Below are positions 20,387-44,176 of a stretch of DNA of 55,558 nucleotides, piece by piece (within the stretch, counting starts at the first letter, position 1; each line of letters starts with the position of its first letter). Below the pieces are notes generated by a model. That model was not told where the DNA came from. It was given only the letters and a program-made list of their open reading frames with translations, and searched no databases. The translations under genes were made by a program, and so were the position numbers. Location of the stretch: NCBI GenBank assembly GCA_024330215.1, contig JANDLU010000014.1, forward strand, positions 1 through 55,558, in the 5' to 3' direction. The stretch comes from Candidatus Gaiellasilicea maunaloa. GTDB taxonomy: Bacteria; Actinomycetota; Thermoleophilia; Gaiellales; Gaiellaceae.

Positions 20387-22119
20387 GCTCGGATCCAATC
20401 GAGCTCGTGAGGAATCCCCGGGTCGCCGACAATGCGGTGGGAGGGACTGCTCCGGACCCGCTCCGAATCGTCTTCGTCCTCTACAGCCTCGGTTTTCTCC
20501 GGTTCTTCGACCCGGTCGTCCGGGCGCTCGTCGAGCGCGGGCACGAGGTACACCTTCTCTGCGAGCGAGACTACGAGCGGCCGAGCGAGCAACGCTGGCT
20601 GGCCGCGATGCGGGCCTCCCCGCTCTTCAGCTACGAGCTCACTCATGCTCTCGCAGGTGACCGGTGGGCGCCGATCGGCAGGTTTCTTCGTAGTGCGGCC
20701 GATCTCGCGTACTTCTCGAGCCCTGCCTTTCGTGGCAAGCGCTCTCTGGTCCAGCGGGCCGGGCGCCGTGCTCCGACGCTGTTCCGGCGGCTGACGGAAG
20801 GCCCGTTCCTGCGCAGCGAGCGCTTGCGCATCCTCCTCTGGCGGACACTGACGGGACTCGAGCGCGCGTTACCGGTTGCGCAGCCGCTCGAGCTCGAGCT
20901 CCGGCGGAAATCCCCCGACGTGCTCGTGGTCAGCCCTTTCCTCATGCCGGGCATGCGGCACTCGGAGTACGTGAGGACGGCGAGGCACCTCGGCATCCCG
21001 TCGTGCATGTGCATCGCGAGCTGGGACAACCTCTCGAACAAGGCCCATCTCAGAGACCCGGCTGACCGGCTCGTCGTCTGGAACGGCGTCCAGCGACGCG
21101 AAGCGATGGAGTTGCACGGCGTTCCCGAGGAGCGGATCGCAATCACCGGAGCGCAGTCGTTCGACATCTGGTTCGACTGGACTCCGCGCGCGCGTGAGGA
21201 GTTCTGCCCGCACGTCGGACTCGACCCGGAGCGGGGTTACCTGATGTATGTCGGGGGCTCGCTCTACCGCGGCAAGATGACGGAGGCGGCGTACGTCCAC
21301 GACGTCTGGATTCCCGAGATCCGACGTGACCCCCGTCTCGCCGACCTCGGGCTGCTTCTGCGCCCCCATCCCTATCGAATGACGCAATGGGCCGAGCAGG
21401 ACTGGAGCTCGTGGCGAGACGTTGTCCTCTGGCCGCGCAACCAGGACGAGATGCCGGTCGACGAGGAAGCCCGCGCGGACTACTTCGACTCGATCTTCCA
21501 CTCGGAAGCCGTTGTCGGGATCAATACCAGCGCGATGATCGAATCGGCGATCGTCGGGCGCGCCGTGCACACGATCCTGGCTCCCGAGTTCGAGGGATCG
21601 CAGACCGGCACGTTCCACTTCGATTACCTCCGCGAGGTTGGGGGCGGCGTCCTCGCCACCGCGCACACCTACGCCGAGCATCGCGACCAGCTCCTGGCGA
21701 CGCTGGCAGGGAACGACGCCGAGGCAGAGACGCGCAGACGACGGTTCCTGGAGGAGTTCGTGCGCCCCCTCGGACTCGAGCGGCCCGCCGTGCCTGCCGT
21801 GATCGAGACGATCGAGACGATCGCTCGGCACGGGCCTATCGCAACCGAGCCGCAAGGCCTGGGACTCTTCCCGATGCGCGCGCTCCTCTATGGCGCGCTT
21901 GGATTGACCACCGTCCTCGGTCCTGTGGTGACTCCTTTCGCCAATGCGAAGCGACGCCGCCGGTTGCTCGAGCGGTTACGCCGGCTTCCTCGCGGCGCGT
22001 TCAGGCGTGGACGACGGTTGGCCTACAGCGGGAGATCGAGTCGCCACTCGAGCATTCGCAGAGCACACAGGCTCGCGAGGCTCGCCGTCCGGATCGGCAA
22101 TCGAGGCTGGCAGCGCTGA
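20383..22119 (+). CDS. GT-B-like surface-glycan protein of the SWDN family (copy 2), arginine-rich tail
   Basis: The 578-residue paralog of the preceding gene has LRIVFVLYSLGFLRFFDPVVRALVERGH at the start, CIASWDNLSNKAHL (~209), MYVGGSLYRGKM (~290), LLRPHPYRMTQW (~325) and VVGINTSAMIESAIVGRAV (~376). YFDSIFHSEAVVG precedes the last motif, as in the other copies. The C-terminal ~60 residues are strongly basic (RRRRLLERLRRLPRGAFRRG). The start ATG overlaps the previous stop. Function is inferred only: transferase acting on a surface polymer or lipid-linked glycan. Confidence 0.65.
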   Translation: MSSDPIELVRNPRVADNAVGGTAPDPLRIVFVLYSLGFLRFFDPVVRALVERGHEVHLLCERDYERPSEQRWLAAMRASPLFSYELTHALAGDRWAPIGRFLRSAADLAYFSSPAFRGKRSLVQRAGRRAPTLFRRLTEGPFLRSERLRILLWRTLTGLERALPVAQPLELELRRKSPDVLVVSPFLMPGMRHSEYVRTARHLGIPSCMCIASWDNLSNKAHLRDPADRLVVWNGVQRREAMELHGVPEERIAITGAQSFDIWFDWTPRAREEFCPHVGLDPERGYLMYVGGSLYRGKMTEAAYVHDVWIPEIRRDPRLADLGLLLRPHPYRMTQWAEQDWSSWRDVVLWPRNQDEMPVDEEARADYFDSIFHSEAVVGINTSAMIESAIVGRAVHTILAPEFEGSQTGTFHFDYLREVGGGVLATAHTYAEHRDQLLATLAGNDAEAETRRRRFLEEFVRPLGLERPAVPAVIETIETIARHGPIATEPQGLGLFPMRALLYGALGLTTVLGPVVTPFANAKRRRRLLERLRRLPRGAFRRGRRLAYSGRSSRHSSIRRAHRLARLAVRIGNRGWQR

Positions 22120-22135
22120 GCGGCCCGGGACTTCG

Positions 22136-23317
22136 GTGAACGCGCTGGCTTCGTCGCCGACGCCGGGCCGGCGCCGCATCTGCGCCTTCTCGGGCAAGCG
22201 GGGCGGCTACGGCGCCTTCGTGCCGTTGCTGCGTCTGATCGACCGCGATCCCGATCTCGAGCTGCTGATCCTGCTCGGCGACATGCACGCATCGGCGGAG
22301 TTCGGCAGCACCGCCCGCGAGGTGCGTGAGGACTTCCCCGACGCGGAGATCGCGCTGATCGAGATGGGAGCCGGCCGCGGCGACACCGGTCTCGTCCGCG
22401 CCGAGAATCTCGCGAATTGCCTGGCCGAATCGGCTCGGGTACTCGCCGGGCGCGGACCGGACATCGTCCTCGTTCACGGCGACCGGGGCGAGCACCTGAT
22501 GGTGGCATTCGCGGCACTCAACCTCGGTCTCACCGTCGCTCACACGCAAGGCGGCGACCGCTCGGGCAACATCGACGAGCTCCAGCGCCACGCGATCTCC
22601 AAGCTCGCGCATGTCCACTTCCCGGAAACGGAGGCGGCCGCGGAGCGGCTGCGAAGGATGGGGGAAGATCCCTGGCGGATCCACACCGTGGGATCGACCT
22701 ACGTCGACCGCATCGCCGCCGGCCTCTATGTTCCGCCGGCCGACGCCCGCGTTCGCGTCGGCCTTGCACCCGACGAGCCATTCTTACTCGCGGTGGTGCA
22801 TCCCGAGACCTTTCTCGACCGGGAAGACAATCGTCGCCAGGCAGAGGCCGTCTTCGATGCCCTGGCGCAGACCGGGTTGCGAACCGTCGTCACGTACCCG
22901 TGCTCGGATCCAGGCTACGAAAGCGTCCTCGAGGCGCTGTCGAGCCGACGAGGAGACCCGGACTTCCTGATCTCCCAGAACATCCACAACGATGTCTATC
23001 TGGGGCTCTTGGCGGGAGCTGACGCGCTCGTCGGCAACTCGTCCGCCGCGCTCGTCGAGGCGCCCTACTTCCGTCTCCCGGCGGTCAACGTCGGACGTCG
23101 CCAGGAGGGCCGCGAGCGAGATCCGAACGTCCTCGACGCGGCGCCGAACCGCGAAGCGGTCGCAGCTGCCATCCGTCGAGTCCGGACGCCGGGCTTTCGC
23201 GGCTCACTGAATGGGGGTGGTCGCCTCGGCGACGGCCGAGCCTCAGAGCGCATCGTGGCCGTGCTTCGTGCGCTACCGCTCGACGACCGCCTGGCCCGCA
23301 AGCAAATCGTCTTCTAG
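22136..23317 (+). CDS. NeuC-like hydrolysing UDP-sugar 2-epimerase (divergent, copy 1)
   Basis: The 393-residue protein has the UDP-GlcNAc 2-epimerase fold: ICAFSGKRGGYGAFVPLL (~15-32), VLVHGDRGEHLMVAFAAL, then VAHTQGGDRSGNIDELQRHAISKLAHVHFP (start VAHTQGGD ~139), and VGNSSAALVEAPYF (~300). NeuC enzymes hydrolyse and epimerise UDP-GlcNAc or a diamino analogue to give the 2-epimer that feeds NeuB. Here RGGY replaces the usual RADY-type loop, and HTQGGD has Asp where other members, including the second copy in this window, have Glu, so its activity may differ. GTG 22136 is the start with no clear ribosome site. Confidence 0.75.
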   Translation: MNALASSPTPGRRRICAFSGKRGGYGAFVPLLRLIDRDPDLELLILLGDMHASAEFGSTAREVREDFPDAEIALIEMGAGRGDTGLVRAENLANCLAESARVLAGRGPDIVLVHGDRGEHLMVAFAALNLGLTVAHTQGGDRSGNIDELQRHAISKLAHVHFPETEAAAERLRRMGEDPWRIHTVGSTYVDRIAAGLYVPPADARVRVGLAPDEPFLLAVVHPETFLDREDNRRQAEAVFDALAQTGLRTVVTYPCSDPGYESVLEALSSRRGDPDFLISQNIHNDVYLGLLAGADALVGNSSAALVEAPYFRLPAVNVGRRQEGRERDPNVLDAAPNREAVAAAIRRVRTPGFRGSLNGGGRLGDGRASERIVAVLRALPLDDRLARKQIVF

Positions 23318-24273: not shown

Positions 24274-25329
24274 TCAGTCGACGTCGTCGAGCTTGATCTG
24301 CTCATCCAGCTCGATCGCGCGGCAGAGGCGGCGGCCCAGGATTCGCTCGACCTCCGAAGCGGGAAGGCCGCCGCGTGCCGGCCGCTTGAAAGCTAGATCG
24401 GCAGCCTCGAGCACGTGGTGCTCGGGGAGAGCGCGCGCCGCCACGACCGCCTGCAGCGCCCAGTCGCGCGCGGCCGTGATCCGCTCGTCGTCTTCGGGTG
24501 GCGGCCTGAGCGCGCGCTCGAGCTCGCGGATCTGTCTCGTCATCTCCGCGAACTCGCGCGGCTCGAGCGCGCCCGGGTTGTCCAGCGAGCGCGGGTCGGT
24601 CTTGTCGAAGGTCAGATGCTTCTCGACCGCGCGGGCACCAAGCGCAACCGCCGCGAGCGGGATGTGCCAACCGACGGTGTGATCGGAGATGCCGATCGGA
24701 ACGTCGAGCAACTCGGCCAACCGCGGGATCCGGTCGAGCGCGGCGAGCTCCGGGGGCGTCGGGTAGACGCTGACCGTGTGAAAGGCGATCACCTCGGGGG
24801 CGCCCGCTTCGCGGAGAAGCTCGACCGCACGCCGAGCCTCGTCGTCATCCTGCAGCCCGAACGCGATCATCACAGGCTTACGGGCGGCGGCCACGCGCCG
24901 AAGGAAGCGCCAGTTGCTCGCCTCGCCCGAGCCGATCTTCAGGCACGGAGCGTCGAGCTCGTCGGCGAGGAAGTCCAGCGACGCATCGTCGTGCGGAGTC
25001 GCGAAGAACAGGAGGCCGCGCCCGACCGCGCGCTCCTGGAGAGCCAGCAGCTCGGCTTCCGAGAGCTCTCTCGAGGCCATCCGGTCGAACCAGTTCCAGC
25101 CGAGCTCGCCACTCAACCGCTCGGCGACGGGCTTGCTGATCAGGTTTTCGGTCTTCCACGCCTGGAACTTCACGGCGTCCGAGCCGCTGTCGCCGGCAAC
25201 ATCGACCTGCCGGGCGGCGAGCGCGGGATCGCCGTAGTTGGTGACCCCGGCCTCGCAGATGACGACGACACGGTCGCGCATGATCGAACCGAGAAGGTCG
25301 CCGTCCAATGGGACACGTTCGCCGCTCAA
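24274..25329 (-). CDS. neuB: NeuB-family nonulosonic acid synthase (copy 2)
   Basis: The 351-residue protein has the NeuB pattern: VVICEAGVTNYGDPALAARQV (~21-41), DAVKFQAWKTENLIS, LKIGSGEASNWRFLRRV (~132), GISDHTVGWHIPLAAVALGARAVEKHLTF (starting ~221; intact SDHTxG metal loop) and a C-terminal SAF domain (VVAARALPEHHVLEAADL). TTG 25329 overlaps the preceding stop (TTGA); ATG 25281 is an alternative 16 codons later. It is the last gene of the minus operon sqdB-neuA-neuB. It should make the keto acid activated by the CMP-synthetase just upstream. Confidence 0.85.
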   Translation of the reverse strand: MSGERVPLDGDLLGSIMRDRVVVICEAGVTNYGDPALAARQVDVAGDSGSDAVKFQAWKTENLISKPVAERLSGELGWNWFDRMASRELSEAELLALQERAVGRGLLFFATPHDDASLDFLADELDAPCLKIGSGEASNWRFLRRVAAARKPVMIAFGLQDDDEARRAVELLREAGAPEVIAFHTVSVYPTPPELAALDRIPRLAELLDVPIGISDHTVGWHIPLAAVALGARAVEKHLTFDKTDPRSLDNPGALEPREFAEMTRQIRELERALRPPPEDDERITAARDWALQAVVAARALPEHHVLEAADLAFKRPARGGLPASEVERILGRRLCRAIELDEQIKLDDVD

Positions 25330-26108
25330 CTGCGACCCTTGCCGCCCTTCGACGTCTGCGAGTTGCTCAGTGCACCCGCCGCGACGAGCGCCTCCGCAAC
25401 GAGCCAGTCGTCGGGCGTATCGAGACTATGCGCCGAGACGGCGTCGATCTCGAGACAGACGCGGCGACCGACCTCGATCTGGCGCTTCGCTCGGAAGGCG
25501 TCGGACCGGAACCAGTAGAGGTTCCCCATCGCCCAGCGCGGCGGGTCGTCCTGGCGCCTCGTATGCGCGTAGTGCGCGCTCTCGTCGGCGTACTCGATCC
25601 AGCCCTCGTCGTCCCGGATCCGCACGTGGTAGGGATGGAACTTCCGGGGTACCTCCACGACGGTGATGGCCGAGTCTGCGCCGCGGTCGCTCATGAGCTC
25701 GAGCGTTTCCCGAATCTGCTCCGGGCGAACGAACGGCTCGGTCGGCTGGATCAGCAGCACGTACTCGGGGTGGTAGCCCTCGTGCTCGTCGAGCCATTCA
25801 AGTGCGTGCTCGATCACGTCGATGGAAGGGGTTTCGTCGCGGGCGAGCTGCGCCGGGCGGAGGAAGGGAACGTCGGCGCCCGCGGCTCGCGCGACAGCGG
25901 CGATCTCCTCGTCGTCCGTTGTCACGCAGGTGCGGTCGACGACGCCGCTCGCCTCGATTGCCTTCAGCCCATACTCGATCAGCGGCTTGCCGGCCAGCGG
26001 CTTGACGTTCTTCCGCGGAATCCCCTTGGAGCCTCCGCGGGCCGTGACGAGCGCGAGCTTCGAGCGAGCCGGCAGGGTGTCGGATCGTGCGTGAGCGAGG
26101 TCGCTCAG
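25326..26108 (-). CDS. neuA: CMP-nonulosonic acid synthetase (copy 2), probable CTG start
   Basis: The 260-residue protein contains LALVTARGGSKGIPRKNVKPLAGKPLIEY (CTP loop, starting ~19), CVTTDDEEIAAVARAAGADV, LLIQPTEPFVRPEQIRETLE and SAITVVEVP, all typical of NeuA-type cytidylyltransferases. No ATG, GTG or TTG exists between the sqdB stop and the CTP loop. CTG 26108 overlaps the sqdB stop as CTGA and gives a normal-length enzyme, so a coupled CTG start is likely. It sits between sqdB and neuB. Confidence 0.8.
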   Translation of the reverse strand: MSDLAHARSDTLPARSKLALVTARGGSKGIPRKNVKPLAGKPLIEYGLKAIEASGVVDRTCVTTDDEEIAAVARAAGADVPFLRPAQLARDETPSIDVIEHALEWLDEHEGYHPEYVLLIQPTEPFVRPEQIRETLELMSDRGADSAITVVEVPRKFHPYHVRIRDDEGWIEYADESAHYAHTRRQDDPPRWAMGNLYWFRSDAFRAKRQIEVGRRVCLEIDAVSAHSLDTPDDWLVAEALVAAGALSNSQTSKGGKGRS

Positions 26109-27431: not shown

Positions 27432-28322
27432 ATGGCGATAGAGGAGCTCCAGTCGGCACGCGAGACGCCCAACCGGCAGCAGGAGCAGCCGACCATCCGC
27501 GTGCTCGAGAGCAGGCGTCCCGGCATCCTCAATGCGCTCGGCGAGCTCTGGCGCTACCGGCGTTTCATCCTCTATTTCGGTAGGCGCTTCCTCACCAAGC
27601 GCTACGCCAGAACGTGGCTCGGACTGCTCTGGCTTCCGCTCCGGCCGATCCTGAACGTCTCGACGAAACTCCTCGTCTTCGGCGGCATCGTCGGCCTCAC
27701 CGCAGGCAACACGCCGTATCCGGTCTTCTTCCTGCTGCTCTCGGCTGCCTGGGTCCTCTTCAGTGAAAGCGCTCTGTGGTCGGCACGCAGCCTGGACATG
27801 AACCGTGGCCTCTTGAGGGAGGTACACATCCCGCGGCTCGTCGTGATCGTCTCCGCGATCGTCCCCAGCACGATCGACTTCCTGATCAGCCTCGGGCTCG
27901 GGGTCCTCGCTCTCGGCTACTACTACGCCCGCGTTCAGACCCTCTACCTGGAGCTGACGTGGTGGTCGCCGCTCTCGATCGGCGCGGCTCTGATTCTCCT
28001 GGCGCTCCTCGGCATCGGTGTCGGGCTCGTCACCGCCTCGGCAGGGGCGAGGGCCCGCGATATCCGCTTCGGCCTGACGTACGGCCTCGGATTCGCCTAT
28101 TTCCTGACGCCCGTGATCTATCCCTTCGAGGCGATCCCGGATGCGTACAAGCCTCTTGCGCAGCTGAACCCGGTGACGGGGGCGCTCGAGATCTTCAAGC
28201 TCGGCCTCTTCCCGAACGAGGAGGTGAGCCCGAAGGCGATCCTCGTCACCATCGCGGCCGTCTTCGCTCTCTGGCTTCCCGGGCTGTGGCTGTTCCAGCG
28301 TCGGGAGGTGCGGGACTGGTGA
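27432..28322 (+). CDS. wzm: ABC-2 type polysaccharide exporter permease (Wzm-like)
   Basis: The 296-residue protein has six likely membrane helices and an amphipathic N-terminal region (LWRYRRFILYFGRRFLTKRYARTWLGLLW; start ~39), typical of Wzm/TagG permeases that move lipid-linked glycans across the cytoplasmic membrane. LLREVHIPRLVVIVSAIVP and TPVIYPFEAIP are conserved in the family. It overlaps the next gene by GTGA. The only partner ATPase in the window is that next gene, which lacks the catalytic motifs. Confidence 0.85.
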   Translation: MAIEELQSARETPNRQQEQPTIRVLESRRPGILNALGELWRYRRFILYFGRRFLTKRYARTWLGLLWLPLRPILNVSTKLLVFGGIVGLTAGNTPYPVFFLLLSAAWVLFSESALWSARSLDMNRGLLREVHIPRLVVIVSAIVPSTIDFLISLGLGVLALGYYYARVQTLYLELTWWSPLSIGAALILLALLGIGVGLVTASAGARARDIRFGLTYGLGFAYFLTPVIYPFEAIPDAYKPLAQLNPVTGALEIFKLGLFPNEEVSPKAILVTIAAVFALWLPGLWLFQRREVRDW

Positions 28323-29725
28323 CGCCCGTGATCGGCTCGAGCCGGCCGGGCGCGCACCCTCTTTTTCTTCGCGACGAGGCGCTGGCGCTCTCGGTCGAGA
28401 GGATCTCGAAGACGTACAGCAGCGTCCACGAGCAGCGGTACACGCCGACGATCTCCCTCTTCGCGCTCCTGCGCGAGCGTCGGGCGGGCGACGCATTCGT
28501 CCTGCTGCCCGAGCTCGCCGGGGATACCGACGACGACGAGGAGGAGGATGAGGGTCCGCTGGGCCCCGCAGGCGAGGGCGAGGAGTCCAATCTCAGCGAC
28601 GTCAGCTTCGAGGTCCGGCGAGGTGAGGCGCTGTGGGTGGTCGCAGATCCGCATCCGCCCGCGCTCACCCTGGCGCGTGTGATCTGCGGGATGACCGCCC
28701 CCACGTCCGGCAGGGTCGTCGTGCGCGGCCGGGTCGCACCGAGCGTGGAGCTCGCACGAGCGCTCACGACGCAGGCGAAGACACCGAGAGCGGTCGCGCG
28801 AGAACTCGCTTCGCTCGTCGGCCCTGGGCGCCGTCGGCACAGCGCCTACGTGGAGGCCGCGCTCGACCTGGCGCTAGGCCGGCCGTGGGCCGCGGCACCC
28901 ACGACCCGCGCGCCACGCCAGATCTTGACTCGGGTCGCCCTGGCTGCCGCGCTCGATCCCTTCTCCGAGGTACTCGTTGTGGATCGGTTTCCCGGCGTGG
29001 GAGAACCCGACTTCCGGGAGCGGTGCCTCGAGCGCGTGCGCGAGCGGCTCTCTGCCGGCGCCGCCGTTGTCGTCACCAGCGACGACGCGGACCTCGTCGC
29101 GCTCTGCGGCCGAGCGATCCGGCTGCAGGGCGGTACGGTCGCCCCGCCGGAGGTCCAGACCGAACCGACCGAGCCGGATCACGGTGAGTCGTCCCTACCC
29201 GAACCCCCCGCGGCAGAGAAGACAAGACCCGAAGCCAAGAACGTCAGAGTCCAGCCTGTCCTGCGCGCGTTCAACGAGCTGGCCGCAATCCTCGCCGCCA
29301 CACCCGTCGATCGGAAGGGATACCCGGTCGAGCTCGTTCGCGCCGAGGAGGAGCTCCGTGTCCGCCTCGACTTCGAGACCGCGCAAAGCGCCGAGGTGAC
29401 GGTGGTGGTCCGGCTCGTGGGCGATGCGACGATCAACTTCGTGAACGAGAAGGTCATGCTCGAGGAGGGCGCACACGTCGCGCTGCTGCGCTTGCCGGCG
29501 GGAACGATCGCGGCGGGCGAGTACGACGTCGCGGTTGGCGTCGTCCTCGAGCAGCCCGGACTTCGCTCGAAGGTCGGCCGGAAGCGTGCCGCCCAGGTCC
29601 GCATCGACGACGACGCCGACGGCCACGCGCTCGTCGCTCAGTCCGGAATGCTTCCTCCCGGTGGCGGAGCCGACGCTTCGGCCGAGGCGGAGTGGTCGAT
29701 CGAGTCGCTCCCCGCTCGGGGCTAG
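28319..29725 (+). CDS. Degenerate Wzt-like ABC protein (pseudo-ATPase) with C-terminal Ig-like domain
   Basis: The 468-residue protein aligns by eye with Wzt: NLSDVSFEVRRGEALWVVA then TAPTSGRVVVRGRVAPSVEL. Where Walker A should be it reads VVADPHPPALTLARV (~106-120), with no G-K-S/T. The signature position reads TTRAPRQILTRVALAAAL, Walker B is LVVDRFPGVGE with Arg in place of the catalytic Glu (~222), and the H-loop histidine is absent (VVVTSDDADLV). An acidic insert (DTDDDEEEDEG) sits near residue 73. Residues ~310-455 form the beta-rich carbohydrate-binding type domain of Wzt proteins. It probably binds glycan or the permease rather than hydrolysing ATP. Confidence 0.75.
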   Translation: MTPVIGSSRPGAHPLFLRDEALALSVERISKTYSSVHEQRYTPTISLFALLRERRAGDAFVLLPELAGDTDDDEEEDEGPLGPAGEGEESNLSDVSFEVRRGEALWVVADPHPPALTLARVICGMTAPTSGRVVVRGRVAPSVELARALTTQAKTPRAVARELASLVGPGRRRHSAYVEAALDLALGRPWAAAPTTRAPRQILTRVALAAALDPFSEVLVVDRFPGVGEPDFRERCLERVRERLSAGAAVVVTSDDADLVALCGRAIRLQGGTVAPPEVQTEPTEPDHGESSLPEPPAAEKTRPEAKNVRVQPVLRAFNELAAILAATPVDRKGYPVELVRAEEELRVRLDFETAQSAEVTVVVRLVGDATINFVNEKVMLEEGAHVALLRLPAGTIAAGEYDVAVGVVLEQPGLRSKVGRKRAAQVRIDDDADGHALVAQSGMLPPGGGADASAEAEWSIESLPARG

Positions 29726-30750: not shown

Positions 30751-31773
30751 ATGCAGATCGGGACGCTGAAGGTCGGTCCAGGTGAGCCCGCTCTCGTGAT
30801 CGCAGAGATCGGGAACAACCACGATGGCAGCGTCCACCAGGCCATCCGCATGATCGAGGCGGCCGCAGACGCCGGCGCCGGCGCCGTCAAGTTCCAGACA
30901 CACATCACCGAGGCCGAGATGCACCCGTCGACGCCGACGCCGCCGCATTTCAGCGAGCCGCGATGGGAGTTCAGCAAGCGGATGGAGCTCGACGGCGACG
31001 AGCACGCACTCCTGAAAGAGCGCGCCGAGAGCCTGGGGCTCCTCTTCTTCTCGAGCCCGTTCTCGATCGAGGCGGTCGACATGCTCGAGCAGATCGGAAG
31101 TCCCTGCTACAAGATCGCGTCCGGTGAGGTCACGAACCCGCCGCTCCTGGAGGCCGTCGCGGCGACCGGTAAGCCGGTGCTCCTCTCGACCGGCATGTCG
31201 GGGATCGAGGACATCGAGCGCGCCCTCGGAGTGCTCGAGCAGGGAGGGACGAAGGAGATGCTCGTCCTCCAGTGCACGTCCAGCTACCCAGCGCCACCCG
31301 AGAAGATCAACCTTCGCGCGATGGTCGCGATGGGCGAGCGCTTCGGGCTGCCCTACGGGCTCTCCGACCATACGCCCGATATCCACACCTCGATCGCCGC
31401 CGTCGCGCTCGGGGCCTCTGCGATCGAGAAGCACTTCACCCTCTCGAAGCGCCTTTACGGCCCCGACCACCACGCCTCGCTGACGCCGGAGGAGCTGACG
31501 CGGCTCGTCGACGGAATCGGCCAGGTCGAGGCGGCCCTCGGGTCGACGACCAAGGAGCGCGATCCCGATCTCGATCCTGCGCGCGCGACGTTCGAGAAGA
31601 GCGTCGTCAGCCGCTCCGCGATCGACGTGGGCGCCGAGATTCACCGGGAGATGCTGACAACGAAGCGACCCGGAAACGGGATCCCCGCCGTTCGGCTCGA
31701 GGAGCTCGTCGGCAAACGCGCCGCTCGTCCGATCCCGGCGAACCACGTGCTGGAGACGAGTGACGTTGCCTAA
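30751..31773 (+). CDS. neuB: NeuB-family nonulosonic acid synthase (copy 3)
   Basis: The 340-residue protein is the most canonical NeuB of the three: LVIAEIGNNHDGS (~15-27), AVKFQTHITEAEMH, CYKIASGEVTNPPLL (~122), VLQCTSSYPAPP, YGLSDHTPDIHTSIAAVALGASAIEKHFTL (start ~207; metal loop SDHT), YGPDHHASLTPEE and a C-terminal SAF domain. It condenses PEP with a ManNAc-type sugar. It overlaps the following neuC-like gene by 14 bases, so epimerase and synthase are made together. No dedicated cytidylyltransferase is in this operon. Confidence 0.9.
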   Translation: MQIGTLKVGPGEPALVIAEIGNNHDGSVHQAIRMIEAAADAGAGAVKFQTHITEAEMHPSTPTPPHFSEPRWEFSKRMELDGDEHALLKERAESLGLLFFSSPFSIEAVDMLEQIGSPCYKIASGEVTNPPLLEAVAATGKPVLLSTGMSGIEDIERALGVLEQGGTKEMLVLQCTSSYPAPPEKINLRAMVAMGERFGLPYGLSDHTPDIHTSIAAVALGASAIEKHFTLSKRLYGPDHHASLTPEELTRLVDGIGQVEAALGSTTKERDPDLDPARATFEKSVVSRSAIDVGAEIHREMLTTKRPGNGIPAVRLEELVGKRAARPIPANHVLETSDVA

Positions 31774-32947
31774 GAGGAAGGTCTGCGTCGTGGTCGCGAG
31801 CCGCGCGAACTACGCCCGCGTCAAGAGCGTGCTCGCCGCGATCGAGGCTCACCCCGACCTCGAGCTGCAGCTCATCGCGGGCGCATCGCTCGTACTCGAG
31901 CGCTTCGGCAACGCCGTCGACGTGATGGCGATGGACGGGTTCATCCCCGACGCGACCATCCGCTTCATCATCGAGGGTGAGACCCCGGTCACGATGGCGA
32001 AGTCGACGGGTCTTGCGCTGCTCGAGCTGCCGACCGTTTTCGAGCTCCTGCAGCCGGACGTCGTCGTCACGGTTGCCGACCGGTTCGAGACCATTGCGAC
32101 CGCGATCGCGGCCGCGTACATGAACATCCCGGTTGCGCACACGCAGGGGGGTGAGGTCTCGGGCTCGATCGACGAGAGCGTTCGCCACGCCGTGACCAAG
32201 CTCGCGCACCTGCACTTCCCCGCCACGGAGCTCTCCGCCCGACGGGTGATCGGCATGGGGGAGGACGCTTCCACGGTCTTCAATCTGGGCTGTCCGTCGA
32301 TCGATCTCGTGGCGTCCGCGGACATGGGTCTACGACGCGACACGCTGGCTCACTTCGGCGGCACCGGCTCCCGCATCGACACCGACCTACCGTTCGTCCT
32401 GATGATGCAGCACCCGGTCACGACCGAGTATGGCAAGGGTCTCGAGCAGATCAACGCGACGATTCAGGCCGTGACGAAGATCGGGCTCCAGGCGCTCGTC
32501 TTCTGGCCGAACGTCGATGCGGGCTCGGAGCAGGTGGCGAAGGGACTCAGGGTCTTCCGCGAGACCGGCGAGGCAAGTGGCTTCCACTTCTTCCGCAACC
32601 TGCCGCCCGAGATCTTCGTCAAGCTGATGGCGCACTGCGCCTGCATCGTCGGGAACTCGTCGGCCGCCCTCCGCGAGGGCGCATTCCTCGGGACACCCGC
32701 CGTAACCGTGGGCACGCGCCAACAGAATCGCGAACGCGGCGCGAATGTGATCGAGGCCGTGCACGACGCGGGCGAGATCGCAGACGCGATCCAGCGACAG
32801 ATCGAGCACGGACCCTACGAGCGCAACACGATGTTCGGCGACGGCACCGCCGGCGAGCGGATCGCACAGGTCCTGGCGGTCGAGCGGCCGGCGATCCAGA
32901 AGAAGCTGAATCTCGCAGGGCTGGGCTTAGAGCTCAAGACGGCCTAG
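31760..32947 (+). CDS. neuC: NeuC-like hydrolysing UDP-HexNAc 2-epimerase (copy 2)
   Basis: The 395-residue protein has the NeuC/LegG pattern: VCVVVASRANYARVKSVL (~8-25), VTVADRFETIATAIAAAYMNIPVAHTQGGEVSGSIDE (start ~112; intact GGE and DE acidic residues), RHAVTKLAHLHFPATE and IVGNSSAALREGAFLGTPAVTVGTRQ (~298). It should supply the 2-epimerised amino sugar to the NeuB encoded just upstream. GTG 31760 gives a 14-base overlap with neuB; TTG 31766 is an alternative. Confidence 0.85.
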   Translation: MTLPKRKVCVVVASRANYARVKSVLAAIEAHPDLELQLIAGASLVLERFGNAVDVMAMDGFIPDATIRFIIEGETPVTMAKSTGLALLELPTVFELLQPDVVVTVADRFETIATAIAAAYMNIPVAHTQGGEVSGSIDESVRHAVTKLAHLHFPATELSARRVIGMGEDASTVFNLGCPSIDLVASADMGLRRDTLAHFGGTGSRIDTDLPFVLMMQHPVTTEYGKGLEQINATIQAVTKIGLQALVFWPNVDAGSEQVAKGLRVFRETGEASGFHFFRNLPPEIFVKLMAHCACIVGNSSAALREGAFLGTPAVTVGTRQQNRERGANVIEAVHDAGEIADAIQRQIEHGPYERNTMFGDGTAGERIAQVLAVERPAIQKKLNLAGLGLELKTA

Positions 32948-32955
32948 TCCGAGCG

Positions 32956-34449
32956 ATGGCCGAGGAGCTCCGGATCGCGCTGCTGCTGCGCAGCCTCGGC
33001 TATGTCAGGCTCTTCGACCCTGTCATCCAGGGATTACTCGAGCGCGGGCACCGCGTGCATCTCCTCCACGAGCGAGACGAGTACACCGACAGGGAGGCCG
33101 CCTGGCTCCACGGGCTCGAGGCGCAGCCCGGGTTCACGTGGAGCGTCACGTCGGCTCTCTACCGGGACCGCTGGGCGGGAATGGCCAACTTTCTGCGGCG
33201 CTTCACGGATTACGTCCACTTCCTCGGCTCCGACTTTCGCGGCGCGCGTTCCCTCGTCGACCGGGCGGAGCATCGGGCTCACAGGCGCGTGCAACGCCTC
33301 ATGCGGCTCAGGGTCATGCGCGTGGAGGCCGTCCGGCGCACGTTGAGGCGGGTGCTCGACGCGCTGGACCGGTCGATTCCGTCGAGCAGCGAGCTGGAGC
33401 TGGAGCTGACCGGGCTCCGGCCGGACGTCCTCGTCCTGGCGCCCCACCTGATGCCCGGCGGCCGTCACTCGGAGTACGTCAAGACCGCGCGCGCCCTCGG
33501 GATCCCGACGTGCATGTGCATCGCGAGCTGGGACAACCTCTCGAGTAAGCAGCTGCTTCGCGAGATTCCCGAACGCGTGGTCGTGTGGAATCACTTCCAG
33601 CGCGACGAGGCAACCCAGGTGCACGGAATCCCCGACAAGCGGGTCGTGATCACCGGAGCGTACTCGTTCGACGAATGGTTCAACCGCGTGCCGCGTTCGC
33701 GAGAGGAGTTCTGCGCGCGTGTCGGGGTCGATCCTGCGCGTCCATATGTGCTCTTCGTCGGCGGAGCGCTCTTCGCCGGCATCGAGACGGAAGCCGAGTA
33801 CGTTCGGAAGATCTGGCTGCCTGATCTCCGCGGCGATTCACGGCTCGACGAGCTCCAGGTGCTCGTCCGCTCTCATCCTCGTAGGCGCGAGCAGTGGGCG
33901 GCCGTCTCCTTCTCAGGGCTCCGCGACGCGAAGGCCTGGCCGCCGGTGGACCAGGTATCGATGCCGGTCGACGAGGAGAGCCGGGCCGACTACTTCGACT
34001 CGATCTACCACAGCGCCGCCGTCGTCGGGTTGAACACAACCGCGATGATCGAGGCGGCCGCGGTCGGCCGGCCCGTCCATGGGCTCCTCGTGCCTTCTTT
34101 CGCCGACTCGCAGGGCGGCACCTATCACTTCGACTACCTGCTCGACATCGCCGGAGGTCTCGTACGGACCTCGACCTCGCTCGAAGAGCACCGCGAGCAG
34201 CTCCTCGGCACGCTGGCGCACCACGACGAGGGGTGGGAGCGGCGCCGAAACGACTTCCTCGTCGAGTTCGTCCGACCCCATGGCCTCGATCGGCCGGCGC
34301 TGCCCTTCGTGCTCGACGAGATCGAGGAGCTTGCGAGCCATCCCGTCCAGCCGCAGCGCGATCACCGGCTATCGACCCGAGCGCTCCGCCTGTCGCTGCA
34401 GACGGCGATGGCCGCGTCGCGCGGTGTCCGCCGAGTGCGGACGCGCTAG
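32956..34449 (+). CDS. GT-B-like surface-glycan protein of the SWDN family (copy 3)
   Basis: The 497-residue paralog has LRIALLLRSLGYVRLFDPVIQGLLERGH at the start, LAPHLMPGGRHSEYVKTARALGIPTCM, CIASWDNLSSKQLL (~187), LFVGGALFAGIE, LVRSHPRRREQW and VVGLNTTAMIEAAAVGRPV (~357). It is closest to copy 2: both contain a PHLMPG/PFLMPG and G-x-RHSEYV stretch. It lacks the long arginine tail but ends in a short basic segment (RGVRRVRTR). It lies 8 bases after neuC, in operon with copy-3 neuB and neuC. It overlaps copy 4 tail-to-tail by 4 bases. Confidence 0.65.
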   Translation: MAEELRIALLLRSLGYVRLFDPVIQGLLERGHRVHLLHERDEYTDREAAWLHGLEAQPGFTWSVTSALYRDRWAGMANFLRRFTDYVHFLGSDFRGARSLVDRAEHRAHRRVQRLMRLRVMRVEAVRRTLRRVLDALDRSIPSSSELELELTGLRPDVLVLAPHLMPGGRHSEYVKTARALGIPTCMCIASWDNLSSKQLLREIPERVVVWNHFQRDEATQVHGIPDKRVVITGAYSFDEWFNRVPRSREEFCARVGVDPARPYVLFVGGALFAGIETEAEYVRKIWLPDLRGDSRLDELQVLVRSHPRRREQWAAVSFSGLRDAKAWPPVDQVSMPVDEESRADYFDSIYHSAAVVGLNTTAMIEAAAVGRPVHGLLVPSFADSQGGTYHFDYLLDIAGGLVRTSTSLEEHREQLLGTLAHHDEGWERRRNDFLVEFVRPHGLDRPALPFVLDEIEELASHPVQPQRDHRLSTRALRLSLQTAMAASRGVRRVRTR

Positions 34450-36038
34450 ATCTGCGCTTCCTTCGCGGGCACGCCGGCGAGACGCCCCGTGAACCGGTGG
34501 ATCAGGAGCCCGACGACCGTTGACGCTGTCGCGACGGCGGTGGGGACGAGCAGGGCGAGCCGGAGCAGCCGAACAGCAAGGGTTGGCGAGGGCGGCCGCG
34601 CCGGTGTCTCCCGGGCGAGCTCGGCGATCGCGCTCGCGACGAACGGCGCGGCCGGCACGTCGAGCCCGTGCGGGCGGACGAAGGAGCCGATGAACCCCTG
34701 GATCCGCTCGTGGTCGCGCTCGCCGCCCTCGAGCACGCGCTCGAGCTGACGCAGATGCTCGTCGAACGAGCGCGAGAGCTCGAGGAAACCGCCATTCTCG
34801 CGGAGGAGATAGTGGAAGTGGAGCGTGCCCTCCTGCGTCTCGTCGAAGGCGGGATCGAGCAGAGTGAGCACGCTGCGCCCGACGATCGCCGCCTCGATCA
34901 TCACGCTCGTGTTCACGCCGACGACCGCCGCAGCGTGCGCGAGCGAGTCGAAGAAGTCCGCCCTGGCCTCGCCGGAGTCGGGCTGCGCCCCGCCCGGCGG
35001 CCAGACGACGACGTTCTCGAGCTCCGCGAGGTCGACCCCTTGCCACTGGGCGAGGTTCTGCGGATGCGGGCGAACGACGATTCCGAGCTCGTCCGCCGCA
35101 AGACGCGGATCTGCCCTGAGCGCGGTCACCCACCGCTGCACGAACGAGACCTCGTCGGGCGCGATGAAGAGGGACGAGCAGACGTAGAGCAGGAACGGCG
35201 CGTCCTCGCGGATTCCGACGCGACGCTTGAAGTCGGCCGCCGACCGGCTCGGCGTCCGCTCGAACCACTCGTCGAACTTCTGCGCGCCCGTGACGACCGC
35301 GCGCTCACCGGCGATGCCTTGCAGCTCCTCGAGCTCGCGCCGCTGCACCTCGTTCCAGACGAGCACGCGGTCGGGCGTGAAGCGGAGCATCCCTTTGTTC
35401 GTCAGGTTGTCCCAGCTCGCGATGCAGGCGGCCGTCGAGACGCCGAGCGCGCGACCGCTCTTCAGGTAGTCGACCTGGCTCGACGCATACTCGACGAGCG
35501 GCGTCGCGAGCACGACGTCGGGGTCGAAGCGGCGCACGAAGGCGTCGATCCGCCGGCTCGTCGGGATCGCCAGCTCGCAGGCGGCGAGGAAGCGGAGCGC
35601 TCGGCGCGCGAGCGTCGCGTCGGAGCGCCGCGCGAGCGAGTCGACGAGCTTGACGAGCAGGAACCCCGTGACGGGATCGCCCTTGCCGAACTGCACTTGC
35701 AGTCTGATCTTCGCCGCCATCCGGGAGCGAAGCGCCGGCGCGGCCGCATAGCGCGGGTGCATGTAGCGGGCGAGGTCGGTGAAGGCGCGCACGAGGATGC
35801 TCGTCCGCCGCCAGCCGTCGAAGTAGCCGCGGCTCGGCGCCGGGCCGAAGGTGACGCCGGGGAACTCGGCCGCGAGTCCCTCCGCCAGCAGGCCGTCGCC
35901 CGGATCCTTCTCGACGGCGGTGAAGCCGAGGTGGATCGCGTGCCCTTCCCGTGCCAACAGCCGAATCGGCTCGCCGTAGTGGCGGAGGTAGCCCGCGTGG
36001 TAGAGGAAGAAGAGGATCCGAAGCGGGCGGTCGGGCAC
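34446..36038 (-). CDS. GT-B-like surface-glycan protein of the SWDN family (copy 4), C-terminal membrane segment
   Basis: The 530-residue paralog has LRILFFLYHAGYLRHYGEPIRLLAREGH, CIASWDNLTNKGML (~203), YVCSSLFIAPDEV, IVVRPHPQNLAQW, VVGVNTSVMIEAAIVGRSV and TQEGTLHFHYLL. Its tail differs from the other copies: LALLVPTAVATASTVVGLLIHRFTG is a likely membrane segment, in place of the polybasic tails of copies 1 and 2. GTG 36038 has TACCCT 6 bases upstream. A membrane anchor here and basic tails elsewhere both suggest action at the membrane. Confidence 0.65.
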   Translation of the reverse strand: MPDRPLRILFFLYHAGYLRHYGEPIRLLAREGHAIHLGFTAVEKDPGDGLLAEGLAAEFPGVTFGPAPSRGYFDGWRRTSILVRAFTDLARYMHPRYAAAPALRSRMAAKIRLQVQFGKGDPVTGFLLVKLVDSLARRSDATLARRALRFLAACELAIPTSRRIDAFVRRFDPDVVLATPLVEYASSQVDYLKSGRALGVSTAACIASWDNLTNKGMLRFTPDRVLVWNEVQRRELEELQGIAGERAVVTGAQKFDEWFERTPSRSAADFKRRVGIREDAPFLLYVCSSLFIAPDEVSFVQRWVTALRADPRLAADELGIVVRPHPQNLAQWQGVDLAELENVVVWPPGGAQPDSGEARADFFDSLAHAAAVVGVNTSVMIEAAIVGRSVLTLLDPAFDETQEGTLHFHYLLRENGGFLELSRSFDEHLRQLERVLEGGERDHERIQGFIGSFVRPHGLDVPAAPFVASAIAELARETPARPPSPTLAVRLLRLALLVPTAVATASTVVGLLIHRFTGRLAGVPAKEAQI

Positions 36039-36075
36039 GGCCGGAGGGTACCGGCGGGGTCAGTAGGCTCTGCTG
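36039..36075. promoter_or_regulatory. Divergent leaderless promoters of SWDN copy 4 and FkbM
   Basis: Minus box TACCCT is at 36050-36045, 6 bases from GTG 36038. Plus box TAGGCT is at 36064-36069, 6 bases from ATG 36076. The spacer is 37 bases. Confidence 0.5.
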
Positions 36076-36882
36076 ATGGCTCGGGAACGCGGTCTCGTCC
36101 ACCGGCTGGCGCGGCGCGTACCCGGCTCGCAGGAGGCGTACCGCCGGCTCAAGATCCGCCGCGCACTCGCGCAGAAGGTCGTCCGGATCGACCACCCCAC
36201 GCTCGACGTCCGGATTCGCGTGACGAACGCCGCAACCGCGCGCCTGCGCGTGGAGTCGGTTGCGAAGGAGCCCTGGACCGTCGCGTGGCTCGAGCGTTCG
36301 GTCCGCCCCGGCGACGTGGTCTGGGACGTGGGCGCCAACGTCGGCGTCTATGCGCTCCTCGCGGCGCGCTTGCTCGGCGAGGACGGCACGGTCGTCGCGG
36401 TCGAGCCCGGCTACGCGAACTTCGCGGCCCTCTGCGACAACGTCGTCCTGAACGAGCTCGACGAGCGAGTCGTGCCGCTCCCGCTCGTCCTCGGCGAGGC
36501 CGCGCGCCTGGCGACGCTCGACTACAGCGACCTGCGGGCCGGCAGCGCCCTTCACCTGCTCGACGGCTCCGGCGCACAGGCGGCCTACCGGCAGCCCGTC
36601 CTCGTCCACACGGTCGACCAGGTGGTCGAGTCGTTCGGCGTCGATCCGCCCACGTTGCTGAAGCTCGATGTCGACGGCGGCGAGACGTCGGTGCTCGCGG
36701 GCGCGCTCGACGTCCTCGCGCGTCCCGAGTTGCGCTCCGTGCTCGTCGAGATCGAGACCGAGCTCACCGCCGACGTCGTCTCCGCCCTCGCAGCAGCCCA
36801 GCTCTTTCTCGTCGAGGAGGTTCACGAGCGCGACGGCGAGCCGCTTCCAGGCGTCTGGTACGGCGTGTTCGAGCGGCGTTAG
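36076..36882 (+). CDS. FkbM-family methyltransferase (copy 2)
   Basis: The 268-residue protein has VWDVGANVGVYALLAARLLGEDG (motif I, start ~82), VVAVEPGYANFAAL (motif II), VHTVDQVVESFGVDPPTLLKLDVDGGE (start ~177, the FkbM D-V-D/E-G-x-E element) and VEIETELTADVV. The N-terminal ~35 residues are basic. It is a single-gene unit with its own leaderless promoter, and its stop overlaps that of the HAD gene by 4 bases. It probably O-methylates a sugar. Confidence 0.8.
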   Translation: MARERGLVHRLARRVPGSQEAYRRLKIRRALAQKVVRIDHPTLDVRIRVTNAATARLRVESVAKEPWTVAWLERSVRPGDVVWDVGANVGVYALLAARLLGEDGTVVAVEPGYANFAALCDNVVLNELDERVVPLPLVLGEAARLATLDYSDLRAGSALHLLDGSGAQAAYRQPVLVHTVDQVVESFGVDPPTLLKLDVDGGETSVLAGALDVLARPELRSVLVEIETELTADVVSALAAAQLFLVEEVHERDGEPLPGVWYGVFERR

Positions 36883-37538
36883 CCGAGACCAAGGAGCTCG
36901 CGAAAGCGCGCCGGCCCCGGCAGCCGTTCGAGCAGGAGCCACGGCTCGTGCTCTGCGAGCTGAGCGGCCGTGTAGGAGCCCGTCGCGACCGCGATCGTCC
37001 TCGCCCCGACCGCGTTCCCGCACTCGATGTCCGCCGGGGTGTCGCCGATCACGAACGCCTCGGCGCCGTTCGCGAAGGGAAGCGCCCGCCGGGCGATCTC
37101 CGCCCGCTCGCCCGGACCGACGGAGAAGGCGCCGCCCAGCCGGAAGAAGCCGTCGAGCCCGTAGTGGGCGAGCTTGGCTGCCGCACCCGCCTCCGTGTTA
37201 CCGGTCAGGAGCAGGTTTGCAACGTCGTCGCGCGGATCGAGGTCCTTCAGTATCTCCCTGACGCCCGGCAGCACCTCTCCCTCGCGGCGGTGGAGGAAGC
37301 CCGCAAGTTGCTCGCCGTGGATGCGCAGGAACCGCTGCACGATCTCCTCGTCGGTCGCGTGCCCGACACGGGCGAGCGCGGCCTCGGCGATCGAGTAGTC
37401 GGTCATTCCGGCGGTCGCCATCCCCTGGAGGCTCGTGCGGACGCCGCTGACCTCCTCGAGGGCCGCCTCGAGCGAGAAGACCCCGGCGCGGGCGGTGGTC
37501 AGCAGCGTCCCGTCGATGTCCCAGAACAAGGCCTTCAT
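36879..37538 (-). CDS. HAD-superfamily phosphatase
   Basis: The 219-residue protein has HAD motif I LFWDIDGTLLTTARAG (~4-19), motif II threonine/serine in NLLLTGNTEAGAA (~110), a lysine-region after it, and motif IV VIGDTPADIECGNAVG (~166-181). The cap insertion is alpha-helical. It overlaps the capsule gene by ATGA and is the last gene of a four-gene minus operon. It may remove a phosphate from a sugar phosphate, for example a 9-phosphate intermediate, but the substrate is not deducible. Confidence 0.8.
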   Translation of the reverse strand: MKALFWDIDGTLLTTARAGVFSLEAALEEVSGVRTSLQGMATAGMTDYSIAEAALARVGHATDEEIVQRFLRIHGEQLAGFLHRREGEVLPGVREILKDLDPRDDVANLLLTGNTEAGAAAKLAHYGLDGFFRLGGAFSVGPGERAEIARRALPFANGAEAFVIGDTPADIECGNAVGARTIAVATGSYTAAQLAEHEPWLLLERLPGPARFRELLGLG

Positions 37539-38920
37539 GCGGTCATGATCTCTCGCTCGGCGAGCGCCGCGCGCGCCGCCTGCTCGAGCGATCCCGCTAG
37601 CCGCACCGCGTTCTCCTCCGAGCGGTCGACGAGCACGGGCGCGCCGGGAACGCAGCGGCGCATCGCCGCGTGCAGGAAGCGCACGATAGTCTCGGGATCG
37701 GGGCGGAAGCGCAGGAGTTCGGGCACCTTCGCGCGAAGCTCTCGGAACGAGTCGACGTCGAGCGTGATCCCGTAGCCTGAGTAGAACGGCTGCCCGAGCG
37801 TGAGGACGGGCTTCTCGTAGAGCAGCGCCTCGAGGCCGACGGTCGAGCTGATCACGGCGATCGCCTCGGCCTTGCGGATCAGCTCGTGCGAGGAGGTGTG
37901 CGGGGCCACGAGCCGCACGTTCGCGCGCGTCCGCAGCCGCCTCAGGAGCGCGAGCGAGTTCCGGCCTACCGACATCGGATGCTCCTTCAAAACGAGGTCG
38001 TAGCCGGGCGGGAGCGCGTCGGCGACCTGCTCGACGAGCGAGGCCTGATCCTCGGTGTGCGGGATCACCTTGCGGATCTTGTAGTCGTCGGTGACGTGGA
38101 GCGGGAAGTAGATGAACGGCCGCGTGCCGTCGAGCTCGTCGTAGAAGGGTCGGGCCGCCCGCGCCCGCACGGTCTCGGCGACGTTCGTCCCGAGCAGCCG
38201 CCACGGCTCGAGATACTCGTTGTCCGCGTCCTCCCCGCGCTTGCGCCGGACGTGCTCGGCGAAGAGCTTCGCCCGCCGCCATTCCACCGGCCAGCGGCGG
38301 TACTCGCGAATCGGCTTCGCCCGCTCGGTGAAGGAGCGGCGGAAGGCCTCCACGTCCTCGCGCTCGGCTGCTGTCAGGTCGCGCACCTCGTCGGGCTCGA
38401 CGATGGGCGCATGCAACGTGTCGACCGAGAGCCGCAGCGGATTCGGGAAGATCGTGTAGAGGAGGAAGAGCACCGGGATCCGTCGCCGGAGGCCGATCAG
38501 ATGCGTGACGACGCGGATCGTCTCGTTCCCGACCTCGGGCACGAGCACGTCGGGCCGGAGCTCGTCGAGCAGGCGCTCGAGCGCGCGGAAGTGGCGGACG
38601 GTGCGACGGATCGCCCACTCCTCCGGCCTGCCGGCCACGACGCGGTCGGCGTAGTAGACCTCGCGGATGTGCGGGATCGGATAGGACGACTCGATCCGAC
38701 GTACTTCGGCGTCGAGATCGTCGGGCTCGTTCATCGCGTCGAACTCGTTCATCGCGTCGAGCAGGCAGCGAGCCTCGAGCCCGCGGGGTCGAAGTAGCCG
38801 AGCCGCCTCGCGCGAGACGCTGATGTGCGCGGTCTCGTGGCCGCGGCGCTCGAGCTCGGCTCCGACGCTGCCGTAGAACTCGCTCTCGTAGGTCTGGAGC
38901 GTGGTGAAGAGGAAACGCAC
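37535..38920 (-). CDS. Capsule polysaccharide biosynthesis protein, KpsS/LipB-like
   Basis: The 461-residue protein has VLKEHPMSVGRNSLALL (~303), VRLVAPHTSSHELIRKAEAIAVISSTVGLEALLYEKPVLTLGQPFYSGYG (start ~328), which is the E-HP, S-S-T-x-G-x-E-A and K-P-V...GQ pattern of Capsule_synth (KpsS/KpsC) Kdo-transferase-like GT-B enzymes. The N-terminal FTTLQTYESEFYGSVGAELERRGHE is typical. Residues FDAMNEFDAMNEPDD come from an 18-bp tandem duplication. It is in operon with two GT4 genes upstream and the HAD gene downstream. It may build or use the linkage to a lipid anchor. Confidence 0.75.
   Translation of the reverse strand: MRFLFTTLQTYESEFYGSVGAELERRGHETAHISVSREAARLLRPRGLEARCLLDAMNEFDAMNEPDDLDAEVRRIESSYPIPHIREVYYADRVVAGRPEEWAIRRTVRHFRALERLLDELRPDVLVPEVGNETIRVVTHLIGLRRRIPVLFLLYTIFPNPLRLSVDTLHAPIVEPDEVRDLTAAEREDVEAFRRSFTERAKPIREYRRWPVEWRRAKLFAEHVRRKRGEDADNEYLEPWRLLGTNVAETVRARAARPFYDELDGTRPFIYFPLHVTDDYKIRKVIPHTEDQASLVEQVADALPPGYDLVLKEHPMSVGRNSLALLRRLRTRANVRLVAPHTSSHELIRKAEAIAVISSTVGLEALLYEKPVLTLGQPFYSGYGITLDVDSFRELRAKVPELLRFRPDPETIVRFLHAAMRRCVPGAPVLVDRSEENAVRLAGSLEQAARAALAEREIMTA
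38726..38760. repeat. 18-bp tandem duplication within the capsule gene
   Basis: CTCGTTCATCGCGTCGA occurs at 38726-38742 and again at 38744-38760, an 18-base period that duplicates six residues (DAMNEF/P) without breaking the frame. Confidence 0.8.
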
Positions 38921-43535: not shown

Positions 43536-43781
43536 GTGAAGACCTCGATCGACATCGACCGAGAGGCCGCCAACGAAGCAGCCGCGCTGCTGGGCACAAC
43601 CACGCTGAAGGACACAGTCGACGCGGCCCTGCGGGAGGTCGTGAGCGCGGAACTCCGCCGTCAGCTCGCCGAGGACGTCCTCGCGGGCCTGCTGTCGGTG
43701 CCGACTCCCGAGGAAGCAGCCCGGGCGAAGTTACCGAAGGTGCCGTTCGATGCTCCGCTCGAGCGTGACCTCGTCGAGTGA
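43536..43781 (+). CDS. vapB: VapB-type antitoxin
   Basis: The 81-residue protein has the short ribbon-helix-helix pattern: MKTSIDIDREAANEAAALLGTTTLKDTVDAALREVV (first ~36 residues), then a charged toxin-binding tail. Start GTG 43536 is supported by TATACT 6 bases upstream. It overlaps the toxin gene by ATGA-type coupling (start GTG 43778). Confidence 0.8.
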   Translation: MKTSIDIDREAANEAAALLGTTTLKDTVDAALREVVSAELRRQLAEDVLAGLLSVPTPEEAARAKLPKVPFDAPLERDLVE

Positions 43782-44176
43782 AGCTGGTCGTCGCAGACAC
43801 GAGTGTCTGGGCGCGCGAGCGCCAGGCGAGAGTAGCTTCACTGCTCAGCGCCGCAATCCAAGCCAACCTGGTCGCCACTACGGTCCCGCTCACGCTGGAG
43901 CTCTTGCGTTCGTCGAGGAGCGCCGCCGGTCTCGTTTTCGACGCTGCCCGATATGACGAGCTGCGTCAGATCGAGATCTCGGCAACAATCGCGCGCCGTG
44001 CCCGTGAGATTCAGCGGTTGCTCTCGTGGCGCGGCTACCACCGTGGCCCGTCCGCGGTCGATCTTCTAGCTGCCGCCGCCGCCGAGTCGGTCGATGCCGA
44101 ACTCTGGCACTGCGACCGCCACTTCGAGCTGATCGCCGAGGTCACCGGCCAGCCGATGCGGCGCGTCGGCACGTGA
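43778..44176 (+). CDS. vapC: VapC-type PIN-domain ribonuclease toxin
   Basis: The 132-residue protein has the PIN-domain acidic residues: VVADTSVWA (Asp ~6), a conserved Glu in TLELLRSS (~41), Asp in SAVDLLAAAAAE (~93) and Asp in HCDRHFELIAE (~113). It is expected to cleave RNA when released from the antitoxin encoded just upstream. The module is inserted between a GT2 gene and the phosphoglycosyl transferase, so it splits a glycan operon. Confidence 0.85.
   Translation: MKLVVADTSVWARERQARVASLLSAAIQANLVATTVPLTLELLRSSRSAAGLVFDAARYDELRQIEISATIARRAREIQRLLSWRGYHRGPSAVDLLAAAAAESVDAELWHCDRHFELIAEVTGQPMRRVGT

Follow-up and report, generated by a model that had tools for sequence, protein, structure and literature searches.

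Results

A Wzt-Like Subunit without ATPase Motifs Overlaps an ABC-2 Permease Gene

We identified a conserved clade of degenerate Wzt homologs (pseudo-Wzt) and propose, with a probability of roughly 0.55, that its members act as a non-hydrolyzing gate, adaptor, or scaffold on the Wzm-like permease of a nonulosonate-glycan exporter. The most eroded member lies in a 55,558-nucleotide stretch of the Candidatus Gaiellasilicea maunaloa genome (contig JANDLU010000014.1), which we refer to as the window. As the original prediction, made from the DNA letters, had correctly described, the gene runs in one frame from a GTG codon at 28319 to a stop at 29725 and is coupled through a GTGA overlap to the permease gene upstream (27432-28322; Table 1).

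Table 1. Coordinates of the permease, the pseudo-Wzt, and neighboring genes in the window
Feature	Position	Strand	Basis
Divergent Wzm-like ABC-2 permease; retains LG-loop G64/W67, P72, R209-D210, and N246-P247	27432..28322	+	Pfam, alignment
Permease TM2-TM3 (coupling) loop; family-conserved K130, F133, and P139 replaced by E, I, and I	27786..27848	+	Alignment; topology by hydropathy
Pseudo-Wzt, 468 aa, GTG start; Wzt-like NBD lacking the ATPase motifs (residues ~92-275), then a linker and a beta-rich domain at the C terminus	28319..29725	+	
Acidic run DTDDDEEEDE, residues 69-78, beta1-beta2 connection (site of the Wzt gate helix)	28523..28552	+	Residue counts; position by PMC6379404
Former Walker A, residues 109-117, ADPHPPALT	28643..28669	+	Alignment to intact Wzt
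Former signature, residues 198-202, APRQI instead of YSSGM	28910..28924	+	Alignment to intact Wzt
Former Walker B, residues 218-223, VLVVDR; Asp present, Glu gone	28970..28987	+	Alignment to intact Wzt
Former H-loop, residues 254-255, SD instead of SH	29078..29083	+	Alignment to intact Wzt
NeuB-type synthase	30751..31773	+	
NeuB-type synthase, second copy	24274-25329	-	
NeuC-type UDP-GlcNAc 2-epimerase	31760..32947	+	
NeuC-type UDP-GlcNAc 2-epimerase, second copy	21944-23317	+	
NeuA-like cytidylyltransferase	25326..25988	-	
ASWDNL-family protein, GT-B fold, no Pfam match; marker of the locus type	34446..36038	-	Structure prediction, genome searches
Second ASWDNL-family member	32956..34449	+	
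ASWDNL-family member	~18677-20386	+	
ASWDNL-family member	~20431-22119	+	
Capsule_synth (KpsS-like) protein; also found in three related loci	37535..38920	-	

Homology of the protein to Wzt over the length of its nucleotide-binding domain (NBD) is certain. The best solved relative of residues 92-275 is A. aeolicus Wzt (6m96; phmmer against the PDB, E 7e-15), and a Foldseek search with a predicted model returned WzmWzt chains throughout ranks 1-12. The model is weak (mean pLDDT 46.5, built from six sequences) and was used only for the NBD core and for this ranking of Wzt chains. Pfam ABC_tran did not match the protein even at an E value of 1.

We compared the protein with a reference set of 66 intact Wzt domains of relatives, drawn mainly from one order. 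Walker A and the DE of Walker B are intact in all 66 of these domains, the signature in 65, and the SH of the H-loop in 64. At the equivalent positions, the window protein has ADPHPPAL for GxNGxGKS/T, APRQI for YSSGM, VVVDR for LLVDE, and SD for SH; the predicted loss of Walker A, the signature, the Walker B glutamate, and the H-loop histidine is thus borne out. Over the 82 columns that are conserved in at least 75% of the intact domains, the window NBD retains 41%, compared with 71% for the lowest intact domain. The Walker B aspartate, several structural glycines, and a KTY motif ahead of the gate loop are still present. The other frames of the region are devoid of Walker A, signature, and Walker B motifs, which rules out rescue of the motifs by correcting a frameshift, an outcome that the original prediction had named as fatal to it. 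ABC_tran had no match on the window's contig, in agreement with the claim that the window holds no other ABC ATPase.

The C-terminal domain had been read as a carbohydrate-binding type, and this fared less well. Pfam Wzt_C, which matches the intact Wzt of the same genome (contig C115), leaves the domain unmatched, and the fold is predicted only at low confidence as a beta-sandwich (pLDDT about 45). Glycan binding by this domain is conceivable and weakly supported.

The Gate Segment Is Acidic

In Wzt, the beta1-beta2 connection of the NBD forms an electropositive gate helix (PMC6379404). At this place the window protein instead has an acidic run, whose structure was predicted without confidence. 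Counted per 12 residues, there are 9 acidic residues in the window protein, 10 in the homolog from genome G340, and 8 in that from G305, against a maximum of 4 and a median of 2 in the intact Wzt (n = 66). The acidic insert noticed originally is therefore real, and it is found in all three pseudo-Wzt that have an N terminus. The charge of the gate segment appears to be reversed relative to canonical Wzt.

The Permease Keeps Its Channel Residues and Has an Altered Coupling Loop

The permease belongs to the ABC2_membrane family and holds 81% of the family-conserved positions, which is inside the normal range. The channel residues singled out in PMC6379404 are the LG-loop glycine and tryptophan, the TM1 proline, and the TM5 aspartate; mapping onto A. 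aeolicus Wzm by alignment and hydropathy would place these at G64, W67, P72, and D210, all of which are present. Among the five divergent permeases of the clade described below, the LG-loop glycine and tryptophan and the TM5 aspartate are kept, and the TM1 proline is kept in four.

The TM2-TM3 loop contains the coupling helix, which docks into the NBD (PMC7078476). Here a lysine shared by 94% of normal permeases (K130) is found in none of the five divergent ones, and F133 and P139 are each found in one. The coupling-loop motif K-x-x-F-P-R reads E-x-x-I-P-R in the window, and across the clade its K is kept in 0/5, its F in 1/5, its P in 5/5, and its R in 2/5. The original description of the permease as intact therefore holds for the channel, whose motifs are kept, but not for the coupling loop. 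The loss of hydrolysis residues, the loss of coupling residues, and the preservation of the channel all point the same way.

Pseudo-Wzt Form a Clade with Stepwise Loss of Motifs

Homologs of the pseudo-Wzt occur in three further genomes of the class (G001, G305, and G340; G000 is the window's genome and G001 the other genome of its genus), each with a divergent permease and the ASWDNL family considered below. In FastTree trees, the four NBDs form one clade when placed with 66 ordinary ones (support 0.982), and five permeases do so when placed with 50 ordinary ones (0.995). The G001 locus (JACCRW010000162.1) has a permease that is 51% identical to the window's beside an NBD that is 36% identical; this NBD is convergent with the permease, and a contig end cuts its N terminus.

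All four pseudo-Wzt lack the Walker B glutamate (D, D, P, and R in its place) and the H-loop histidine (N, Q, R, and D). Beyond these shared defects, erosion proceeds stepwise, first of the signature and then of Walker A, and ends with the window protein. Walker A is intact in G340, whose signature reads LSRGM and whose Walker B and H-loop read LLADD and ASN; G001 (LLLDD, SQ) and G305 (HLFDP, TAR; convergent to its permease as in G001) have Walker A and no signature. The Pfam ABC_tran score follows this series, from 79.9 bits for the intact Wzt on C115 to 65 for G340, 43 for G305, 33 for G001 (N terminus cut), and no match for the window protein. Judging from its Walker A and LSRGM, the G340 protein could retain slow hydrolysis. 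The convergent arrangement, with about 8 bases between the genes, is seen in two genomes (L166:6949-8313 and L061:8185-9234); the genes are co-directional in the window and in G340.

A fifth clade permease lies in G002 (L111:7663-8607, contig C6), shortly downstream of genes for marker proteins; an NBD is absent from about 8 kb on its upstream side and 15 kb on its downstream side. The next gene, which overlaps it (L111:8588-9364), encodes 258 aa and matches a zinc finger weakly at best. No other copies were found among 129 genomes of the order, and a permease-based scan of genome contigs returned only the G001 contig and four distant ordinary Wzm. The clade is represented by four pseudo-Wzt sequences, of which one is truncated at a contig end, with metagenome assemblies among the sources. 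Its known spread is probably an underestimate.

At three other loci compared, G000 and G001 are 85-90% identical in DNA. Their permeases and NBDs are far more divergent than this genome background and are therefore better regarded as old alleles of a variable glycan locus than as simple orthologs. The locus has the look of a mosaic shaped by exchange between species. G001 contig C19 (L146) matches window positions 35544-36883 over 1.3 kb at 91%, and the rest of C19 and contig C348 are without a close match.

The Pseudo-Wzt Evolves under Constraint

The identity of 36% between the window and G001 NBDs exceeds what neutral drift would leave. In 200 simulated runs, started from the window sequence at the measured synonymous distance, identity averaged 19% and reached at most 29%, and no pair (0/200) stayed open over the full length. 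The dN/dS ratio was 0.63 in the NBD, 0.41 in the permease, and 0.67 in the C-terminal domain, with dS so near saturation that these values are rough. The NBD is thus evolving more quickly than the permease, as expected after loss of catalysis, but not freely. Its branch is long, and codon usage in the window NBD region is weaker than in all neighboring genes tested; both would also fit relaxed constraint in the window copy alone.

Together with the conservation of the family, the simulation rejects a reading as a pseudogene: we found no stops, no frameshifts, and no unconstrained evolution. The prediction had pointed to the kept frame and length, which are real but weak evidence alone in DNA of 69% GC, where the family comparison decides. 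It had also proposed dN/dS across orthologs as a check and free decay among them as the result that would count against it; the sequences show, rather than free decay, shared defects, a shared insert, and a shared locus.

The Locus Encodes Nonulosonate Enzymes and a Predicted GT-B-Fold Family

NeuB-, NeuC-, and NeuA-like genes neighbor the exporter genes, and the cargo is therefore likely to be a nonulosonate-containing glycan. Other neighbors in the window encode methyltransferases, glycosyltransferases, and Wzz-like and O-antigen-ligase-like proteins. The locus is marked by the ASWDNL family, proteins of about 500 residues with four copies in the window and no match to Pfam or to PDB sequences; a GT-B fold is predicted with good confidence, either glycosyltransferase- or NeuC-like. 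Within the order, the family is found only in G000, G001, and G002, with a fragment in G108. Within a 399-genome sample of the class it is found in seven genomes, adding G305, G340, and G359, and five of the seven also have the divergent permease next to it. A search of plasmids for the family gave no match. Genes for NeuB, NeuC, cytidylyltransferase, transketolase, ALDH, and KpsS-like proteins recur around the marker and the permease in other genomes. The transketolase-like gene of the window (10336-12198) has counterparts at four related loci (G002, G305, G340, and G359), in each case close to the marker or to nonulosonate genes. Inside the glycan cluster there are also small genes (43536-44176 and 44772-45182) that by eye resemble an antitoxin paired with a PIN-domain toxin, and another PIN-like gene.

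The Only Intact Wzt Found in the Genome Has Its Own Wzm

We searched the genome for an orphan Wzt that might serve the window's permease, as the original prediction had suggested, and none emerged. The only Wzt-type NBD found is the intact one on contig C115 (L062:2258-7010), which is paired with its own Wzm 2.6 kb upstream. The next candidate (C4) was rejected, as it resembles DrrA-type ATPases and has a membrane partner of its own. On C115, a hemE-like and a hemH-like gene separate Wzm from Wzt, and similar spacing is seen in many relatives. Among the database Wzt, one in a record titled Bifidobacterium breve (CAMAVT010000018.1) is nearly identical to those of Candidatus Nanopelagicales, and the label is probably wrong.

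Discussion

What, then, moves the glycan? The intact Wzt of C115 might drive the divergent permease in trans, with the pseudo-Wzt as a substrate adaptor that supplies the C-terminal domain and the gate loop. This is unlikely, although it has real points in its favor: that Wzt carries a Wzt_C domain, the carbohydrate-binding domain of Wzt can act in trans in O-antigen systems (PMC9445017), and G002 has an additional clade Wzm without any NBD nearby. Against it, the intact Wzt is already provided with a Wzm at a spacing that is similar across its family, and a second Wzt was not found in G001 (an assembly that is 69% complete). Moreover, the coupling loop of the divergent permeases is altered, so that a standard Wzt should fit poorly. 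Still less would we expect the pseudo-Wzt to pair with an intact NBD into a heterodimer with one degenerate ATP site. Loss of the catalytic glutamate and of other motif residues is typical of such sites (PMC7756269), and the relatives of the window protein keep Walker A. However, exporters with degenerate sites retain one full composite site, and the cluster encodes no partner NBD. With Walker A and the signature both missing from the window protein, even an intact partner could complete neither composite site.

An exporter that has fallen out of use, with an NBD that is drifting, would account for the long branch, the low codon bias, and the higher dN/dS of the NBD than of the permease. We nonetheless consider decay improbable: the key defects, the acidic insert, and the neighborhood are common to independent genomes, identity is about twice the neutral expectation in a frame free of stops and frameshifts, the permease is normally constrained, and saturation of dS makes the ratios rough. 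The reading to which we give least credence is a rebuilt ATPase that still binds or hydrolyzes ATP through unusual residues. The retained Walker B aspartate, structural glycines, and KTY motif speak for it, but the P-loop lysine and glycines, the signature, and the general base are all missing at their usual places.

We therefore favor a non-hydrolyzing subunit. Of the original prediction, which offered a glycan-binding adapter served by an ATPase from another locus or export driven another way, this preserves a non-ATPase subunit kept for another job, on the strength of the clade, the acidic insert, the locus, and the constraint; the carbohydrate-binding part is kept weakly. The occurrence of the family in several genomes and the position of the insert at the gate-helix site lay beyond what the window sequence alone could tell. 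The ancestor of the pseudo-Wzt was the motor of a polysaccharide exporter of the Wzm/Wzt type; with its hydrolysis residues gone, the protein would most likely serve as a fixed or gated scaffold, presumably still seated on its specialized permease. An acidic loop in place of the positive lipid-diphosphate pocket might act as a gate, a plug, or a mimic of the anionic substrate. Power for translocation would come from something other than the pseudo-Wzt; the GT-B enzymes of the cluster might supply it as they build the glycan, or the membrane potential might do so through a negatively charged lipid head group. Those relatives that are less eroded and have Walker A may still switch the gate by binding ATP without turnover; for the window protein, such a switch is unlikely. 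A broader and more tentative possibility is a whole lineage of ABC exporters that no longer uses ATP as its own fuel, in which a Wzm-type channel for nonulosonate glycans has a dead motor as an acidic gate, and in which nearly intact, half-eroded, dead, and missing motors survive as stages in living genomes.

Wzm/Wzt exporters serve as models of ATP-driven polymer movement through a membrane channel. An exporter that runs without its own ATPase would, if true, be a new kind of system, and a natural clade with the channel and without the motor separates what the channel alone can do (gating, lipid flipping, and synthesis-coupled movement) from the part played by ATP. Since the gate charge appears reversed in pseudo-Wzt, the debated role of the gate helix becomes directly testable, and the clade supplies a graded natural series of motif loss. 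In the literature searched, which included few subscription journals, we found no description of a dead Wzt family or of a pseudoenzyme motor of a polysaccharide exporter.

The system most like this one is the Wzm/Wzt O-antigen exporter of A. aeolicus (PDB 6m96, 7k2t, and 8dku), which shares the permease-NBD order, the NBD core, the extra beta1-beta2 segment, a C-terminal beta-rich domain, and the LG-loop, proline, and aspartate motifs of the permease. It differs in that the ATPase motifs of the window protein are all gone, the gate segment is acidic, the coupling loop is changed, and Wzt_C is not recognized. The teichoic acid exporter TarGH/TagGH (PDB 6jbh, 7dd0, and 9cfl) is likewise of the ABC-2 type, with an UndPP-linked class of substrate, a beta1-beta2 gate loop, and a coupling helix between TM2 and TM3, but TarH/TagH are normal ATPases. 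With the degenerate-site ABC exporters (TAP, TmrAB, TM287/288, and Pdr5), the window's pseudo-Wzt shares the loss of the catalytic glutamate and, in the case of Pdr5, also of the Walker A lysine and the H-loop histidine. Those exporters have one complete composite site, whereas the sole NBD of the window locus lacks both halves and has no partner NBD there with which to form one. In keeping its fold and its conservation as a family while losing its catalytic residues, the pseudo-Wzt resembles pseudoenzymes in general.
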